NCBI GenBank assembly: GCA_947466165.1
Contig: CANIDW010000020.1
Span: 1 to 11,756, forward strand
From: Comamonadaceae bacterium
GTDB taxonomy: Bacteria > Pseudomonadota > Gammaproteobacteria > Burkholderiales > Burkholderiaceae_C
DNA: 11,756 bases
Direction: 5' to 3'
In this document: positions 5,901-11,756 of the stretch, piece by piece
Position numbering within the stretch: position 1 is the first letter of the stretch
How the letters are laid out: the number at the start of each line of letters is the position of its first letter
Made by a program: the position numbers and the translations under genes
The notes under the pieces: generated by a model
The model's database searches: none
Seen by the model: the letters and a program-made list of their open reading frames with translations, nothing else
Told to the model about the DNA's origin: nothing

Positions 5901-6130
5901 TACATCAGTGGTCGCAGGCGGAGCGCCCGGGCAGCTGTTGGAGATAAAGGCAAAGCCGCTATTTTCGCTGGTTTTTAAGCCTTGTCAGCAAAACAAGCGC
6001 AGCCAGGTCAAGACGCCGGCTAAAGTAAGGCACGACACCCTGACCAAGTTGCAGGCCATTTGGGAGCCAAGCAGGCTAACCCGCCGCACCAATCCTTGCC
6101 CCTCAAGCTGACAAAGCCAACCACGAGAGG

Positions 6131-6159
6131 CTTATGAAATGCCTATAAATGAATATCAA
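6131..6159 (-). promoter_or_regulatory. Possible leftward sigma70 promoter
   Basis: On the - strand TTGATA (6159-6154, five of six matches to TTGACA) is followed after 17 nt by CATAAG (6136-6131, four of six matches to TATAAT). The start point would be near 6124, giving a leader of about 320 nt before the DUF349 ATG, or a separate small RNA ending at the terminator-like hairpins. The -10 element is weak. Confidence 0.3.
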
Positions 6160-6174
6160 ATACAATTGATATTC
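6151..6174. repeat. 24-bp interrupted palindrome, candidate operator
   Basis: GAATATCAA (6151-6159) and TTGATATTC (6166-6174) are perfect 9-bp inverted repeats separated by 6 bp. The right arm directly abuts the TTGACG -35 element of the rightward promoter, and the left arm contains the -35 element of the possible leftward promoter. In a GC-rich neighbourhood such an AT-rich palindrome between two promoters is what a regulator binding site would look like. I do not recognise the regulator. Confidence 0.5.
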
Positions 6175-6204
6175 TTGACGGGCTATCTTTAAGCCTTTTA
6201 GAAT
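6175..6204 (+). promoter_or_regulatory. Rightward sigma70-type promoter (upstream)
   Basis: TTGACG (6175-6180) and TAGAAT (6199-6204) each match the sigma70 consensus at five of six positions and are 18 bp apart. Transcription would start near 6211, far upstream of the transglycosylase ATG at 6555, and would run through the NrdR boxes. It is the best consensus promoter in the intergenic region. Confidence 0.5.
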
Positions 6205-6313
6205 TTCTTCAGGCATGTAGAACCATCAGGGACTACCCGAAGTGGCCAGCCTGGGACTCAATGCACCTATTTGGTGCAAAAATCAAGGCCTAAAATTCCC
6301 AATTAGGGGCTAA

Positions 6314-6360
6314 ACACTACCGGTAGTGCTTGTAAAAGGCGCAAGCACTATATATAGTGC
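6314..6360. promoter_or_regulatory. Tandem NrdR boxes (operator)
   Basis: Two 16-bp palindromic sites share the form CACTA-N4-TAGTG. Box 1 is 6314-6329 (core CACTACCGGTAGTG) and box 2 is 6345-6360 (GCACTATATATAGTGC, a perfect palindrome). The gap between them is 15 bp and the offset is 31 bp, about three helical turns, so both lie on the same DNA face. This agrees with the known NrdR operator: paired 16-bp boxes resembling ACACTATATATAGTGT, 15-16 bp apart, at ribonucleotide reductase promoters. Box 2 matches that pattern at 14 of 16 positions; box 1 keeps both arms but has CCGG at its centre. Box 2 covers the -10 element of the promoter at 6330-6358. The nrdR gene is at 8891-9340, but the gene downstream of the boxes is a lytic transglycosylase. 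Confidence 0.85.
6330..6358 (+). promoter_or_regulatory. NrdR-overlapped promoter of the transglycosylase gene
   Basis: TTGTAA (6330-6335) and TATAGT (6353-6358) are 17 bp apart and match the sigma70 consensus at four and five positions. The -35 lies in the gap between the two NrdR boxes and the -10 inside box 2, so bound NrdR would block RNA polymerase. The predicted start is near 6365, leaving a 190-nt leader. Confidence 0.55.
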
Positions 6361-6368
6361 CCCCACGT

Positions 6369-6390
6369 CCTTGGAGTAATCGCTCCAAGG
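6369..6390 (+). other. Stem-loop at the predicted 5' end of the transglycosylase mRNA
   Basis: CCTTGGAG (6369-6376) and CTCCAAGG (6383-6390) form a perfect 8-bp stem with a 6-nt loop, starting about 4 nt after the predicted transcription start. A hairpin at a 5' end commonly protects mRNA from decay. It has no following T run, so it is not a terminator. Confidence 0.45.
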
Positions 6391-6554
6391 CATTGAACGG
6401 CTTGTGATTTGAACGATCCCGAGCCGCCCCGTTTCAAAACGACCGGCCCACACATTGCCGCCCCCGAATTTCACGAAAGCTCACACTGAAAAAACTCATG
6501 CCCACCAGCTGGCCGGCTTTAAAGCTGCAAGCTGGAAGCGACGAAAGGAGTTAC

Positions 6555-7415
6555 ATGTCAACGACTTTGAATTTAAGCCTGCACAAGTGCATGGCAGACT
6601 TCCGCAGCAGCGCCCGGAATGTTTTTAACGATATTGCAGCCGGTTTCCTTCAAATCAGCCACAACGGCTTTGCCATGCTGGGCCTGGCCCTGGTGTTTGT
6701 GATGATCACCCTGACCGCCCGCCCCGACCTGCGCGAAGCCGGCGAAATCCGCCTGATGGCGCTGCTTCTGGCGCGCCAGGAAGCCAGCATCGGCTTCACC
6801 GAACCGGGTGCAGTAGACCGCGCCACGGCCGCCAACCCCAAGGATTTGCCCAGCAAACAAGCGGCGGTGGCTTTCTGGTTGAGTAAAAAATACGCTGTCG
6901 CCCCCGAACCGCTGAGCGCGCTGGTGGCCCACGCCTTTGCGATCGGTGAAAAGTCCAAACTCGACCCGACCCTGATACTGGCCATCATGGCGATCGAATC
7001 CGGTTTCAACCCCTTCGCCCAAAGCCCCGTCGGCGCCCAAGGCCTGATGCAGGTCATGACCGGTGTGCACCACGACAAATATGCGCACTTCGGCGGACGC
7101 ATGGCGGCTTTTGACCCGGTGACCAACCTGCGTGTGGGCGTTAAGGTCTTGCAAGAATGTATTTCCCGGGCCGGCTCGATTGAAGGCGGTCTGAAGTTTT
7201 ACGTAGGCGCAGCCAATCTGGACGATGACGGCGGCTATGCCAGCAAAGTCCTGGCCGAACACGGGCGTTTACAGGCTGTTTTTGCCGGGAAGCGGCAGCC
7301 TTTTGACACCCTGGCCGAGCCCATGCCAATACCAGCGTCATACCAGACTCCGGCCCCGGCTGAGAGCCCGCTCAAGTCTGAGCCGGTGGCCAAAGTCGCG
7401 CTGCTGGGCAACTAG
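6555..7415 (+). CDS. Membrane-anchored lytic transglycosylase (SLT domain, GH23 type)
   Basis: This encodes 286 residues predicted to cleave the MurNAc-GlcNAc bond of peptidoglycan with formation of 1,6-anhydroMurNAc. One hydrophobic segment (residues 38-54, ending before TARPD) should anchor it in the inner membrane with the catalytic domain in the periplasm. The SLT domain spans about 120-245: AIMAIESGFNPFA with catalytic Glu148, then SPVGAQGLMQVM (157-168) and FDPVTNLRVGVKVL (186-199). The C-terminal 40 residues are Pro/Ala-rich. I chose ATG 6555 because AAAGGAG (6544-6550) lies just upstream; the in-frame ATG at 6498 has no such site. It stands alone behind the NrdR-box promoter, 217 bp before glyA. 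Which cell-wall process it serves cannot be read from the sequence. Confidence 0.9.
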   Translation: MSTTLNLSLHKCMADFRSSARNVFNDIAAGFLQISHNGFAMLGLALVFVMITLTARPDLREAGEIRLMALLLARQEASIGFTEPGAVDRATAANPKDLPSKQAAVAFWLSKKYAVAPEPLSALVAHAFAIGEKSKLDPTLILAIMAIESGFNPFAQSPVGAQGLMQVMTGVHHDKYAHFGGRMAAFDPVTNLRVGVKVLQECISRAGSIEGGLKFYVGAANLDDDGGYASKVLAEHGRLQAVFAGKRQPFDTLAEPMPIPASYQTPAPAESPLKSEPVAKVALLGN

Positions 7416-7445
7416 GCCGATAAGGCCTGTCAGCTACACTTTAAG

Positions 7446-7567
7446 GGTGCGCGACTGGCGATAGGTATGGGCGGTTGAAAAACAGCGCATGCTGACGTGG
7501 GACACCACTTGGAAGCGCACCGCTTGCGGGCTATCTAGCCCAAAGCGATCAGCCGTTCGCCTGGGCA
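7446..7567 (+). promoter_or_regulatory. ZTP/ZMP riboswitch (pfl motif) in the glyA leader
   Basis: The leader contains the conserved elements of the pfl RNA, which binds ZTP or ZMP (AICAR phosphates), signals of 10-formyl-THF shortage. Stem P1 is GGTGCGC (7446-7452) with GCGCACC (7515-7521). It encloses GACTGGCG (7453-7460) and the hairpin GTGG-GACA-CCAC (7497-7508), and ends with GGAAGC (7511-7516). A linker hairpin (GGGCT 7528-7532 with AGCCC 7537-7541) leads to the 3' domain CCGTTCGCCTGGGCA (7553-7567). CGCC (7558-7561) can pair with GGCG (7457-7460) as the family's pseudoknot. An extra hairpin with an A5 loop (7471-7488) is inserted in the 5' domain. The gene controlled, glyA, belongs to folate one-carbon metabolism, a usual target of this riboswitch. 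Confidence 0.92.
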
Positions 7568-7632
7568 GCCCTTGCTTCTCTTCCTTACTATATGGACACT
7601 GAGGACAAGGAACACCGTCTTTAAGGACTGCC
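7564..7632 (+). promoter_or_regulatory. Riboswitch expression platform hiding the glyA ribosome binding site
   Basis: GGCAGCCCTT (7564-7573) can pair with AAGGACTGCC (7623-7632) at nine of ten positions, with a single C-A mismatch. The second segment contains the AAGGA Shine-Dalgarno and runs up to the glyA ATG. Nested inside, TTCCTT (7581-7586) pairs perfectly with AAGGAA (7607-7612). The first segment starts within the conserved TGGGCA of the aptamer, so aptamer folding and ribosome-site sequestration should exclude each other. Ligand binding would then free glyA translation. No intrinsic terminator is present. Confidence 0.65.
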
Positions 7633-8877
7633 ATGTACGACCGCCACCATCTGATTGAGCAAACCGACCCGGAACTATGGGCTGCCATCAAGGCTGAGAA
7701 CGCCCGCCAAGAGCACCACATTGAGCTGATTGCCAGCGAAAACTACGCCTCGCCCGCCGTCATGGCCGCGCAGGGCTCGCAACTCACCAACAAATACGCC
7801 GAAGGCTACCCGGGTCGCCGCTATTACGGTGGCTGCGAGCACGTGGACGTGGCCGAGCAACTGGCGATTGACCGCGTCAAGCTGATTTTTGGTGCCGATG
7901 CCGCCAACGTGCAGCCGCATTGCGGCGCCTCGGCCAACATGGCCGTGTTTCTGGCATTCCTCAAGCCAAGAGACACCATCATGGGCATGAGCCTGGCCGA
8001 AGGCGGCCACCTGACGCACGGCATGGCGCTGAACATGAGCGGCAAATGGTTCAACGTAGTCAGCTACGGCCTGAACGCCAAGGAAGAAATCGACTACGAC
8101 GCCATGGAACGCAAGGCGCACGAATCCAAACCCAAACTGATCATCGCCGGCGCTTCAGCTTATTCGCTGGGTATCGACTTTGCACGTTTTGCCAAGGTGG
8201 CCAAAGACGTGGGCGCCATTTTTCTGGTGGACATGGCGCATTACGCCGGCCTGATCGCCGCAGGCGTGTATCCCAACCCGGTGCCGCACGCCGACGTGGT
8301 GACATCAACCACCCACAAGAGCTTGCGCGGCCCGCGCGGCGGCATTATTTTGATGAAATCCGTGCACGAAAAAGCCATCAACAGCGCCATCTTCCCCGGC
8401 CTGCAGGGCGGCCCCCTGATGCACGTGATTGCCGCCAAGGCAGTGGCTTTCAAAGAAGCGCTGGAGCCCGGCTTCAAGATTTACCAGCAGCAAGTCATCA
8501 AGAACGCGCAGATCGTTGCCGAGACCCTGATCTCACGCGGCCTGCGCATTGTCAGCGGCCGCACCGAAAGCCATGTCATGCTGGTGGATCTGCGCGCCAA
8601 AGGCATCACCGGCAAGGAAGCCGAATCCGTGCTGGGCAGCGCCCACATGACGATCAACAAGAACGCTATTCCTAACGACCCTGAAAAACCGATGGTCACC
8701 AGCGGCGTGCGCATCGGCACCCCCGCCATGACCACACGCGGCTTCAAGGACGAAGAAGCGCGCATGACGGCGCACCTGATCGCCGACGTGCTGGACAACC
8801 CGCGCGACACGGCCAACATTGACGCCGTGCGCGCCAAGGTGCACGCCCTGACCAGCCGCTTCCCCGTCTACAAATAA
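7633..8877 (+). CDS. glyA: Serine hydroxymethyltransferase
   Basis: GlyA is a cytoplasmic PLP enzyme that converts serine and tetrahydrofolate to glycine and 5,10-methylene-THF, the main source of one-carbon units for purine, thymidylate and methionine synthesis. The 414-residue product is colinear with the E. coli enzyme (417 residues). Recognisable blocks are [10 protein letters not shown] (31-40), [10 protein letters not shown] (58-67), the cofactor-binding VDMAHYAGL (199-207) and [12 protein letters not shown] (226-237) with the Schiff-base Lys229. The ATG at 7633 is preceded by AAGGA with 5 nt spacing. Translation is probably controlled by the ZTP riboswitch upstream. nrdR follows after 13 nt, so the two are almost certainly co-transcribed. 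A weak TACACT -10 element at 7435-7440 would start transcription at the base of riboswitch stem P1. Confidence 0.98.
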
Positions 8878-8890
8878 TGGCCCTTGACCG

Positions 8891-9340
8891 ATGAAGTGTC
8901 CTTTTTGCGGCAACCTCGAAACCCAGGTCGTCGAGACCCGGATTTCCGAGGATGCAGACTTCATCCGGCGCCGCCGCCAGTGCAGCGCCTGTGAAAAGCG
9001 CTTCACCACCTATGAACGGCCTGACGTCAACTTTCCGGCCATCGTCAAAAAAGACGGCCGGCGCATTGAGTACAAGCGCAGCAAGATTCTCGAATCCATG
9101 AACCTGGCCTTGCGCAAACGCCCGGTCAGCACCGAGCAGGTGGACTCGGCCATTGAACGGATAGAAGAAAAACTGCTCAACCTGGGTTTGCGCGAAGTGC
9201 CTTCAACGCGCCTTGGCGAGCTGGTCATGCGCGAGCTCAAGAAACTCGACAAAGTGGCCTACGTGCGCTTTGCCAGCGTGTACCGCAGCTTTGAAGACAT
9301 CGACGACTTCAAAAATCTGGTCGACGAGGTCAGGCGCTAA
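8891..9340 (+). CDS. nrdR: Transcriptional repressor NrdR
   Basis: NrdR is a nucleotide-dependent repressor of ribonucleotide reductase genes; its ATP-cone senses ATP against dATP and changes oligomer state and DNA binding. The 149-residue product has the N-terminal zinc ribbon with Cys3, Cys6, Cys31 and Cys34 and the DNA-contacting basic run RRRR (26-29), followed by the ATP-cone from about residue 49 ([19 protein letters not shown]). The length is typical of the family. It lies 13 nt after glyA without its own obvious ribosome binding site, so it depends on the glyA transcript and perhaps on coupling. The matching operator pair is at 6314-6360. It is convergent with pilE, with 33 bp between the stops. 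Confidence 0.98.
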
Positions 9341-9381
9341 GGCACTTTAGTTACTGGGCACTGCGATGGCCGCCTAGCGCC
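9333..9381. repeat. Inverted repeat spanning the convergent nrdR and pilE ends
   Basis: GGCGCTA (9333-9339) and TAGCGCC (9375-9381) are perfect inverted repeats, and each contains one of the two convergent stop codons. The 35-bp interval shows no T-rich run, so an intrinsic terminator is not evident. The repeat may simply reflect similar stop contexts. Confidence 0.25.
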
Positions 9382-9835
9382 AGCATTCAGCCACGCTCCA
9401 CGTGCTGTTCAAGACGCCCCGCAGACCGGTCTGGTTGATCGTCAGACTGCCGCAAACATCGCCGGCCATGCTGCCTTCAGGCACCGCCTGCACAAGGTAG
9501 CTGTTCACACTGGCTTCACGCACGCTCAGACGGTAGTGCACAGAACCTTGCGTGGGGACCTGTTGCAGACGCTGCGGCAAGACGGGGGCAGCATTTGACG
9601 GACTCAGGTACTGGCCATTGGCACTGTAATAACGCTCCATGTAGTGCTGCGCCTCAAGCAAGGCGGCCATGGCTTCAGTGCGATGGCCTCTTTGCACATA
9701 GCGCGTGTAAGCGGGCAGCGCGACCGCGGAAAGCACACCCATGATCACCAGCACCACCAGCAATTCGACCAAAGAAAAACCGGCGAGCCGGAACTGCCGC
9801 CCTAAGTGTGCGCTTTGAAACACTTGAGCTTTCAT
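9374..9835 (-). CDS. pilE: Type IV pilin-like minor pilin PilE
   Basis: This 153-residue prepilin has a 19-residue basic leader ending in Gly19, then FSLVELLVVLVIMG, with Phe20 as the first mature residue and Glu24 at mature position 5. That is the prepilin peptidase (PilD) motif and the hydrophobic helix that packs in the pilus core. Cys127 and Cys151 near the C-terminus are placed to form the pilin disulphide loop. The frame stays open far upstream, but the prepilin motif and an ATGA overlap with the pilX stop fix the start at 9835. No Shine-Dalgarno is visible, so translation is probably coupled to pilX. Position at the end of the pilV-pilW-pilX run suggests the minor pilin PilE that primes pilus assembly rather than the major pilin. 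Confidence 0.92.
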   Translation of the reverse strand: MKAQVFQSAHLGRQFRLAGFSLVELLVVLVIMGVLSAVALPAYTRYVQRGHRTEAMAALLEAQHYMERYYSANGQYLSPSNAAPVLPQRLQQVPTQGSVHYRLSVREASVNSYLVQAVPEGSMAGDVCGSLTINQTGLRGVLNSTWSVAECWR

Positions 9836-10473
9836 GATGCAGGCGGATTGATGATGCGCATCCAGACGCGGTCTGCCAGCGTGCCGGCATCGCCGGGTGC
9901 AGCGCGTTGAACAGACAGGCGGCACTGCAGCCAGACCACCGCACCGCTGCGCAGACCCGGCCGGATTTCGCGGTAGTCCGGGCTGAAACCACGCGCCGTG
10001 ATTACGTAGACGTCTGCGTTGCCCACGGCGGCACCGTTTTGCAGCAAGGGCAGCGCCTGCCGCTCCACCACGCACTGCGGCAGCATCTGCGGCGCAAAAG
10101 CGCTGTCCAAAGATTCGACAAAGGCTTGTGCCACGCTGGTCAGCGATGCGAATGCACCACCTGAACCCGACCAGGTTTGCGGATTGGCCCAGCCGGGTAC
10201 GGCCGTAGCGTTGATGGGTATCAACACAGACTCTTGCAAGCTGCTGACCCGTTGAGCGTCTGCCAGCAAGAGTTGGCTCTGGCAATAGCGCAAAGCGGCC
10301 TCGGCATACTGCTCGGCCAGCCAATGCATACGAACGTTATGGCTGACACGCTCATTGGAGCTGGCCTTGCGCAAGCTGGCCGCAGACGTCAAGCCGATGA
10401 CCACCAGCAAGACCAGCACGATGATGAGTGAAGCGCCTTGCCCGCGCGCCAGATACATGCGACGCCGGCTCAT
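9832..10473 (-). CDS. pilX: Minor type IV pilus assembly protein PilX
   Basis: This 213-residue protein has a short basic N-terminus, then GQGASLIIVLVLLVVIGLTSAASLRKASSNE, a PilX-type prepilin helix. It lacks the Glu at mature position 5, as is usual for PilX and the related GspK proteins at the tip of the pseudopilus. The rest (VSHNVRMHWLAEQYAEAALRYCQSQ and a globular C-terminal domain) fits PilX. Its ATG overlaps the pilW stop as TGATG and its stop overlaps the pilE ATG, so the genes form a translationally coupled operon. An internal ATG at 10458 is an alternative start. Function in priming pilus assembly is inferred from the family. Confidence 0.88.
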   Translation of the reverse strand: MSRRRMYLARGQGASLIIVLVLLVVIGLTSAASLRKASSNERVSHNVRMHWLAEQYAEAALRYCQSQLLLADAQRVSSLQESVLIPINATAVPGWANPQTWSGSGGAFASLTSVAQAFVESLDSAFAPQMLPQCVVERQALPLLQNGAAVGNADVYVITARGFSPDYREIRPGLRSGAVVWLQCRLSVQRAAPGDAGTLADRVWMRIINPPAS

Positions 10474-11297
10474 CAGGGTGTCTTGCTGCGCAAGGCGATG
10501 GTGCTGAAATAAACGCGCCTCAAACGCCCGTCGGCAGCAGTCCGGAGAACCCCGTCACAGTCGAGGTAGGACTGCCAGGCGGCGTCTTCTGCTTTGGCCG
10601 GTGCCTCACTGCTGCGCATCAGCAAGCACACCCGCACACTCATGACGCGGCTGAAATCGGCGCTGCTGGCTTGTGTGTAGCGAATCAGCTGAGGCGAAGC
10701 GCCCCCGTCAGATTGACCGTACCAAAACTGCAAACGCTCGACGTTGTCCACCAGCGGTATGGTGCTGCTGCCACTGCTGCATCGCAGCTCGCTGCGCCCC
10801 GGGCTGCTGCTGCCGACGCCGTAGCGGTTGAAGGTGATCCCGTTTTGACTGGCAGGCAAAGCCTCGCCAGCGCAATCGGTCCCCTTGCCCTTAGACACCA
10901 CCGAGTTGTAGAGATCAACTTCGTAAGCAATTTCAATGGAGGGTGTTCCCCCGCTGATGGCGCAAGTCGAAGGGTTGGCGGAAGGCGCTGCGCTAAACCC
11001 TTTGTCGCAGCCAAACACTGCGCGTCCTTCATAGCTTTGGTTAAACACCCGCGTGTCCGCGTTCATGCTGGTGGGCAGTGCATAACCGGCCATGAGCAGT
11101 TCGCGCGTCAGAATGCGCAAGCCGATTTGTGCGTCCTCGTCCATCTGCGCTACGGCCGATTGCAAACGACCCGTTTGAGCATTGCTCAGGTAAGAGGCCA
11201 GCACCGCACCCACCACCACCAGCCCGATACCCAGCGCCACCAGTATTTCTATCAGGGCAAAGCCTGTGCTGTCAGAGGGCATGGGCCACCGTTTCAT
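10473..11297 (-). CDS. pilW: Minor type IV pilus assembly protein PilW
   Basis: This 274-residue protein starts with a prepilin leader ending in Gly12 followed by FALIEILVALGIGLVVVGAVL, with Glu17 at mature position 5. The long globular domain after the helix, with QSAVAQMDEDAQIGLRILTRELLMAGY and several Cys residues (for example in FGCDKGF, STCAIS and ELRCSS), is typical of PilW. It lies between pilV and pilX with a 4-nt and a 1-nt overlap. It should sit in the inner membrane before assembly and join the tip complex of the pilus. The start at 11297 is fixed by the ATGA overlap with pilV. Confidence 0.92.
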   Translation of the reverse strand: MKRWPMPSDSTGFALIEILVALGIGLVVVGAVLASYLSNAQTGRLQSAVAQMDEDAQIGLRILTRELLMAGYALPTSMNADTRVFNQSYEGRAVFGCDKGFSAAPSANPSTCAISGGTPSIEIAYEVDLYNSVVSKGKGTDCAGEALPASQNGITFNRYGVGSSSPGRSELRCSSGSSTIPLVDNVERLQFWYGQSDGGASPQLIRYTQASSADFSRVMSVRVCLLMRSSEAPAKAEDAAWQSYLDCDGVLRTAADGRLRRVYFSTIALRSKTP

Positions 11298-11756
11298 GGA
11301 TGAACCCGGAAATAGCTACAGCGAATGCTGCTGTCGCCCACAGCCAGTCCTGCGGGGCACTCCTTGACCAGCGCTGTCGTTTCATCGGCATTGGCCAGCA
11401 GCGGGTCACGCCAGGCCAGCCACACATCGGCAGCGGCGAAGGCAGCCTGCCTTTGCACAAACACAGAGCCTTGCGGAAGCGCTGCACGCGCCAAGACCCG
11501 CCACTGCGCCAGGTCCAAAGCCGCAAGCTCAAGGGCGCTGCAAACGCTATTCGGTTCGTTGCAAAGCTGCGCCGGCAGATCCAGGTTGCCTGATTGGGCG
11601 GCAAAACTGACCTTGTAGTCATAGGCCTGCGCCGCAAAGCCAGCCGGGTTGGCCCGCATGCGCTCGCTGATCTCCACAGCCAAGGTCAAAGCCTGGGCGC
11701 GGTATTGGCTCATTTTGGTATAGCGCAAAGCGGCCGCATTGGCGCTGGCCAAAGCC
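11294..11756 (-). CDS. pilV: Minor type IV pilus protein PilV, C-terminal part (cut by the window edge)
   Basis: The frame is open from the window edge to a TGA at 11296-11294, giving about 154 residues. The visible N-terminal part (ASANAAALRYTKMSQYRAQALTLAVEISERMRANP) matches the helical region that follows the membrane helix in PilV proteins, especially the A-L-A-E/V-ERMRANP pattern. The prepilin leader and first helix lie outside the window. The only start-like codon in view, TTG 11752, is internal. A Cys pair (LCNEPNSVC) and a C-terminal Cys (IRCSYF) could form disulphides. It overlaps pilW by 4 nt. Confidence 0.85.
   Translation of the reverse strand, partial: ALASANAAALRYTKMSQYRAQALTLAVEISERMRANPAGFAAQAYDYKVSFAAQSGNLDLPAQLCNEPNSVCSALELAALDLAQWRVLARAALPQGSVFVQRQAAFAAADVWLAWRDPLLANADETTALVKECPAGLAVGDSSIRCSYFRVHP

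Follow-up and report, generated by a model that had tools for sequence, protein, structure and literature searches.

NrdR is regarded as a repressor specific to ribonucleotide reductase (RNR) genes. Together with dATP plus ATP or ADP, it is described as binding paired boxes approximately three turns apart (PMC12051234, PMC12176259), and boxes separated by a gap of 15–17 bp are reported to repress an in vivo reporter efficiently (PMC12051234). In a passage of PMC5894146, NrdR and lytic transglycosylase are named as distinct genes that belong to different groups of viruses. Here, we describe a predicted NrdR operator, real and complete, at a target that is new, restricted to one lineage and not an RNR gene: the gene of an SLT-domain lytic transglycosylase.

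The window, i.e. the whole stretch of DNA analysed, comprised 11,756 nt, and features are given on its plus strand unless indicated otherwise. Direct reading identified two perfect CACTA-N4-TAGTG palindromes, ACACTACCGGTAGTGC (NrdR box 1, 6314–6329) and GCACTATATATAGTGC (NrdR box 2, 6345–6360), which were 31 bp apart from start to start and from centre to centre, with 15 bp between the 16-mers. Both boxes were also recovered with a genome pattern search and a position weight matrix (PWM), and box 2 was unchanged in the sister genome (G030). The box pair enclosed a sigma-70-type promoter, TTGTAA-17-TATAGT, whose −35 element was located at 6330–6335 (TTGTCA in the sister) and whose −10 element fell within box 2 (6353–6358). 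A promoter scan of 6100–7700 returned only two sigma-70-like promoters, this one and one at 6175–6204 (mean of shuffled sequences 0.9). The arrangement of −35, 17-bp spacer and −10 matched that of the nrdA promoter of the same genome. An earlier note on this DNA had claimed this geometry, with box 2 overlapping the −10 of a 17-bp-spaced promoter, and had recognised the NrdR architecture in it. Both claims held, the latter on the basis of sequence, spacing, promoter overlap, likeness to the genome's own nrdA operator and the presence of nrdR, which was encoded 2.5 kb downstream of the operator. The 15-bp gap lies within the 15–17 bp range, which counts for a functional NrdR operator-promoter. 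With paired boxes, a gap in this range, promoter overlap and an nrdR gene in the genome all found, we regard the site as a genuine predicted NrdR operator-promoter and not as a chance occurrence. A hairpin directly after the operator (6369–6390) was strong in the window (z −2.35) and lost in the sister (z +0.83), and a small-RNA or attenuator reading was rejected because of this absence.

The genome to which the window belongs (1.98 Mb, 343 contigs, 74% complete) was searched with the tandem pattern, allowing up to three mismatches over 20 fixed positions. This partial genome yielded two sites, both exact: the operator upstream of the SLT gene (20/20 fixed positions) and a site at C65:7177–7221. 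The latter preceded an ORF that encodes two ATP-cones and the beginning of an RNR all-alpha domain, i.e. a class I NrdA. At up to three mismatches, the reversed control pattern had no match in the same genome and had matches in 8 of 87 same-genus genomes; sites with three mismatches are therefore doubtful, exact sites are not. The comparison with nrdA promoters proposed in the earlier note was made with a PWM built from 24 distinct nrdA operators, which were themselves scored leave-one-out. The SLT operator reached 40.3 bits, within but at the low end of the range of the nrdA operators (32.9–71.9 bits, median 62.0). It exceeded only one of the 24, or four of the 24 when the boxes alone were scored. 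The best background score was −7.0 in 318,620 bases, 47 bits lower; this background was pre-filtered for positions starting with CA or with CT at 3–4, and loci with known operators were excluded. The SLT operator is thus a low-scoring yet clear member of the nrdA-operator set. The sister operator, which had one mismatch in box 1, had a full PWM score of 31.0 bits, below the lowest nrdA operator. That a palindrome-binding regulator other than NrdR is at work, or that two palindromes were paired by chance, is very improbable, given this distance from the background and an exact pair at NrdR spacing that occurred in its own genome only here and before nrdA.

The gene next after the operator (6555–7415) encodes an SLT-domain (GH23-like) lytic transglycosylase of 286 aa, as indicated by its match to PF01464 (1.5e-17; 63.7 bits against a cut-off of 21.3). 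Its matches to Slt70 and MltC structures were weak and partial, and it scored under the NCBIfam equivalog cut-offs. The start codon is very probably at 6555 and not at 6498, because position 6555 is preceded by the ribosome-binding site GAAAGGAG and because the sister has an in-frame TAA within the extension that begins at 6498. With this start, the operator lies approximately 195 bp ahead of the gene. The SLT gene was followed by glyA (serine hydroxymethyltransferase, PF00464; 7633–8877) and nrdR (8891–9340), in the gene order that had been claimed. The nrdR gene was intact by its profile matches (TIGR00244 equivalog, 179.1 bits against a cut-off of 124.65; PF22811 and PF03477), and its product is the presumed repressor at this operator.

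The distribution of the operator was determined in 61 SLT loci of the genus, distributed over 59 genomes: every listed genome with an SLT orthologue was included, and G020 and G037 each contributed a second copy. The scan covered up to 1,100 nt upstream of SLT, and less in L028 (471 nt), L138 (217 nt), L140 (313 nt), L149 (271 nt) and L150 (543 nt). The operator was found in two of the 61 loci, the window and the sister, whose SLT is 94% identical to that of the window. It was absent ahead of SLT in the remaining 59, where the next best tandem score was 13/20. G057 and G058 had no operator in their SLT upstream DNA. A second set, which overlaps with the same-genus set, comprised 33 named-genome loci (with Rhodoferax, Polaromonas, Ramlibacter, Variovorax and Ideonella among the titles); it contained the operator once and lacked it ahead of SLT in 32 loci. 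The single positive locus, L087 from a Rhodoferax MAG, had the same operator as G030 and was taken as the sister. The expected conservation upstream of orthologous transglycosylases was therefore not borne out beyond the nearest relative, and with the operator not kept before orthologues, SLT is not a conserved member of the NrdR regulon. As the operator was seen in two separate MAGs, an assembly error is unlikely. The link between NrdR and SLT is probably lineage-specific and fairly recently gained. As one part of the explanation that we regard, taken whole, as fairly probable, the operator arose in one sub-lineage of this Rhodoferax-like genus, between the old SLT promoter and the gene.

This old promoter corresponds to the second hit of the promoter scan, TTGACG-18-TAGAAT at 6175–6204 (10/12), which we assign as the ancestral (native) SLT promoter. 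The motif TTGAC...TA[AG][AG]AT was found ahead of SLT in 56 of the 61 same-genus loci, including the window and the sister; it had been listed first for 21 of 28 other loci of the genus and then for the 61 loci of 59 genomes. The common form in most relatives was TTGACAGGTTATT...TAGAAT with an imperfect inverted repeat ahead, and L145, L146 and L156 matched in diverged form. Five loci had no native promoter by this motif, namely L138 and L149 (upstream DNA of only 217 and 271 nt, respectively), L144, L147 and L157, the second SLT copy in G037. The distance from the native promoter to the start codon was 166–282 nt in 54 loci, compared with 380 and 385 nt in the window and the sister, respectively. 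Since the native promoter is still present at 6175–6204, the predicted NrdR promoter is an additional, second promoter. Across the genus, an inverted repeat resembling ATAAAGAA..TTCTTTAT was seen by eye before the native SLT promoter, which suggests a regulator of the SLT transglycosylase. Its counterpart in the window, GAATATCAA-N6-TTGATATTC (6151–6174), was located directly upstream of the native promoter in the sequence and was compared with the relatives by eye.

The DNA at 6205–6534, which bears the NrdR promoter, is extra or replaced leader DNA. It made the leader approximately 100–200 nt longer than in relatives and, leaving aside matches of operator length, had a counterpart only in the sister. 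A 371-bp leader region was present in a single copy in its own genome and had no match among plasmids. Compared with the 87 genus genomes, five matched among the candidates scored (eight per genome in many): its own genome, the sister, G018, G027 and G010. Matches of approximately 50 bp were located at the sister nrdA operator, in G010, and at listed NrdR operators of G018 and G027. An origin from a mobile element or repeat was rejected, as the leader was single-copy, had no plasmid match and had genus matches of only approximately 50 bp beyond the sister; no source was found.

We favour, with moderate confidence, a gained dNTP-responsive NrdR operator-promoter that serves as the second promoter of the SLT gene and has the transglycosylase as its main target. 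At high dATP, NrdR with ATP and dATP would occupy both boxes, covering the −10 element and the DNA directly upstream of the −35 element, and the second SLT promoter would be closed. A fall in dNTPs would release NrdR, and the second promoter would then add to the basal output of the native promoter. In its bound state, NrdR may also block polymerase that started at the native promoter, 110 bp further upstream, and some read-through into glyA–nrdR would be possible. NrdR could thereby couple peptidoglycan cleavage to dNTP status; we infer binding, repression, the direction of the response and its physiological value at this operator from the DNA sequence.

Alternatively, the operator could serve the whole SLT–glyA–nrdR unit. 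Read-through would render both nrdR and glyA, a supplier of one-carbon units for dTMP and purines, responsive to dNTPs, and a negative autoregulatory loop would have been gained, with the transglycosylase partly a passenger. The gene order agrees with such a unit: SLT–glyA–nrdR was found in 32 of the 33 named-genome loci, the exception being L089, a contig ending inside glyA, and the gap between glyA and nrdR was 13 bp. No terminator-like site was found in 6100–7700 (mean of shuffled sequences 2.0), so none was recognised between SLT and the start of glyA and read-through from the NrdR promoter is possible. However, a separate start for glyA–nrdR would be supplied by a −10-like TACACT (7435–7440, by eye) next to a ZMP/ZTP riboswitch aptamer (RF01750, 7441–7573; 51.9 bits, gathering 39). 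ZTP riboswitches preceded glyA in nine of ten related loci searched. The aptamer motif was detected in 31 of the 33 loci, and in each of these, as in the window, TA[AC]A[AC]T was seen by eye ahead of the riboswitch; it immediately preceded the riboswitch in 28 loci, whereas in L114, L118 and L119 it stood a little further upstream. Given this conservation, glyA–nrdR very probably has its own transcription start, and the operator could control nrdR only by read-through. The earlier suggestion of read-through into the nrdR operon is thus weakened by this conserved −10, although no terminator-like site was recognised in 6100–7700. With regard to autoregulation, PMC5343134, in which 186 NrdR regulons of Proteobacteria were compared, reports that autoregulation of NrdR was never encountered, whereas according to PMC9110341, NrdR in bacteria at large often regulates its own gene. 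Overall, we consider it unlikely that the operator serves the unit as a whole.

The riboswitch, for which no terminator was recognised up to 7700, possibly acts on translation. Residue 15 of NrdR was Glu in the protein from the window and in all 11 relatives printed (of 32 with nrdR); D15 is named in PMC9110341 as a specificity residue of Streptomyces coelicolor NrdR. Downstream of nrdR, the minus strand of 9374–11756 carried a run of ORFs resembling type IV pilus minor-pilin genes, partly judged by eye, with PilW (PF16074) at 10473–11297 and a PilX N-terminal match under the cut-off at 9832–10473, both on the minus strand.

Tandem sites with up to three mismatches were present in 68 of the 87 genus genomes, with at least one in each. 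Among the matches listed, 50 loci were examined (30 from the genus scan and 20 fetched, partly the same places), and the operator was directly before nrdA in 34 of them and elsewhere in 16. These 16 included the nrdD operator of G026:C37 (twice; PF13597), the sister SLT locus, six places with three mismatches and the unclassified L051 and L081. The remainder were a few exact or near-exact sites, in G026:C33, G040:C36, G036 and G038:C64. Identity to the nrdA operator of the respective genome was 43/45 for G026:C33 (L071), 42/45 for G040:C36 (L077) and 40/45 for G036:C1 (L067, present twice); G038:C64 (L074) had an operator with two mismatches ahead of a DUF3892 gene. The flanks of these orphan operators differed from the nrdA locus. 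NrdR operators at non-RNR places thus appear to recur in the genus, judging by these matches. In L077, the exact operator (1816–1860) was located between genes for a tyrosine integrase and AlpA / PriCT_2-AAA primase, i.e. in an integrative element; the G040 MAG is listed with 7% contamination. In L071, L067, L074 and L076 (G017:C109; three mismatches), the tandem operators contained a promoter and were not at RNR genes, and a hairpin often followed at a short distance. Operator-terminator modules were considered and rejected: hairpins near orphan operators were terminator-like by eye, and scans showed no terminators ending the NrdR transcript. A strict pattern of the operator plus AAGCC/GGCTT had no match in 399 family genomes, which included six of the genus, the window's own genome among them, and none with an orphan operator.

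In view of the recurrence of non-RNR operators, the SLT case is less unusual, and it becomes more probable that it, too, is an orphan: an operator of the nrdA kind, arisen by chance or by copying, to which NrdR binds with little or no physiological role. The near-identity of several same-genus sites to nrdA operators points to recurrent spread, and the restriction of the SLT operator to two genomes suits a young site. The operator itself, however, shared 35 of 45 positions with the nrdA operator of its own genome and no clear common flank (10–12 of 30), so it is no fresh copy. A recent copy of that promoter was accordingly rejected as its origin; an old copy, or convergence, is possible. Moreover, the boxes, their spacing and the −35 and −10 elements persisted although the flanks of window and sister differed at approximately 11–23% of aligned positions. 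Identity between the two was 44/47 in the operator, 85/110 in the stretch directly upstream, 161/180 in the leader downstream and 792/861 in the SLT coding region. This suggests selection on the NrdR boxes, if weakly, because the downstream leader was almost as conserved as the operator. We therefore consider a site with little or no role rather unlikely and retain the second SLT promoter as the preferred reading.

A more far-reaching interpretation, which we consider doubtful, is that a single lineage-specific gain placed a peptidoglycan-cleaving enzyme, one-carbon supply and NrdR itself under dNTP control. It would include an autoregulatory loop of the kind reported absent from Proteobacteria and would be part of a wider spread of NrdR operators to non-RNR genes in the genus, including an integrative element. 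If functional, the operator would connect remodelling of the cell wall, and possibly the expression of nrdR, with the supply of DNA precursors. A tandem operator that is complete and overlaps a promoter, placed before a cell-wall gene, would represent a clear expansion of the NrdR regulon, and close relatives that retain the same gene and native promoter without the operator provide a natural comparison.

Like the NrdR operators of proteobacterial RNR operons (nrdAB, nrdHIEF, nrdDG, nrdJ), the SLT site is a pair of 16-bp palindromes with a 15-bp gap and promoter overlap. Unlike them, it precedes an SLT-domain transglycosylase gene, as an added promoter downstream of the native one. It resembles the orphan operators L067, L071, L074 and L077 in its tandem boxes with an embedded promoter at a non-RNR locus; these differ in their loci and neighbours, with only a few bases of the flanks in common. 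The NrdR box of Pseudomonas aeruginosa topA is likewise described as an NrdR site at a non-RNR gene (PMC4409342). That site is reported as a single box at which NrdR acts as an activator, a mechanism doubted in PMC12051234, where two boxes are stated to be needed. The one non-RNR target in the papers considered is thus itself in dispute. At the SLT gene, in contrast to topA, both boxes lie over a promoter, as would be expected for repression.
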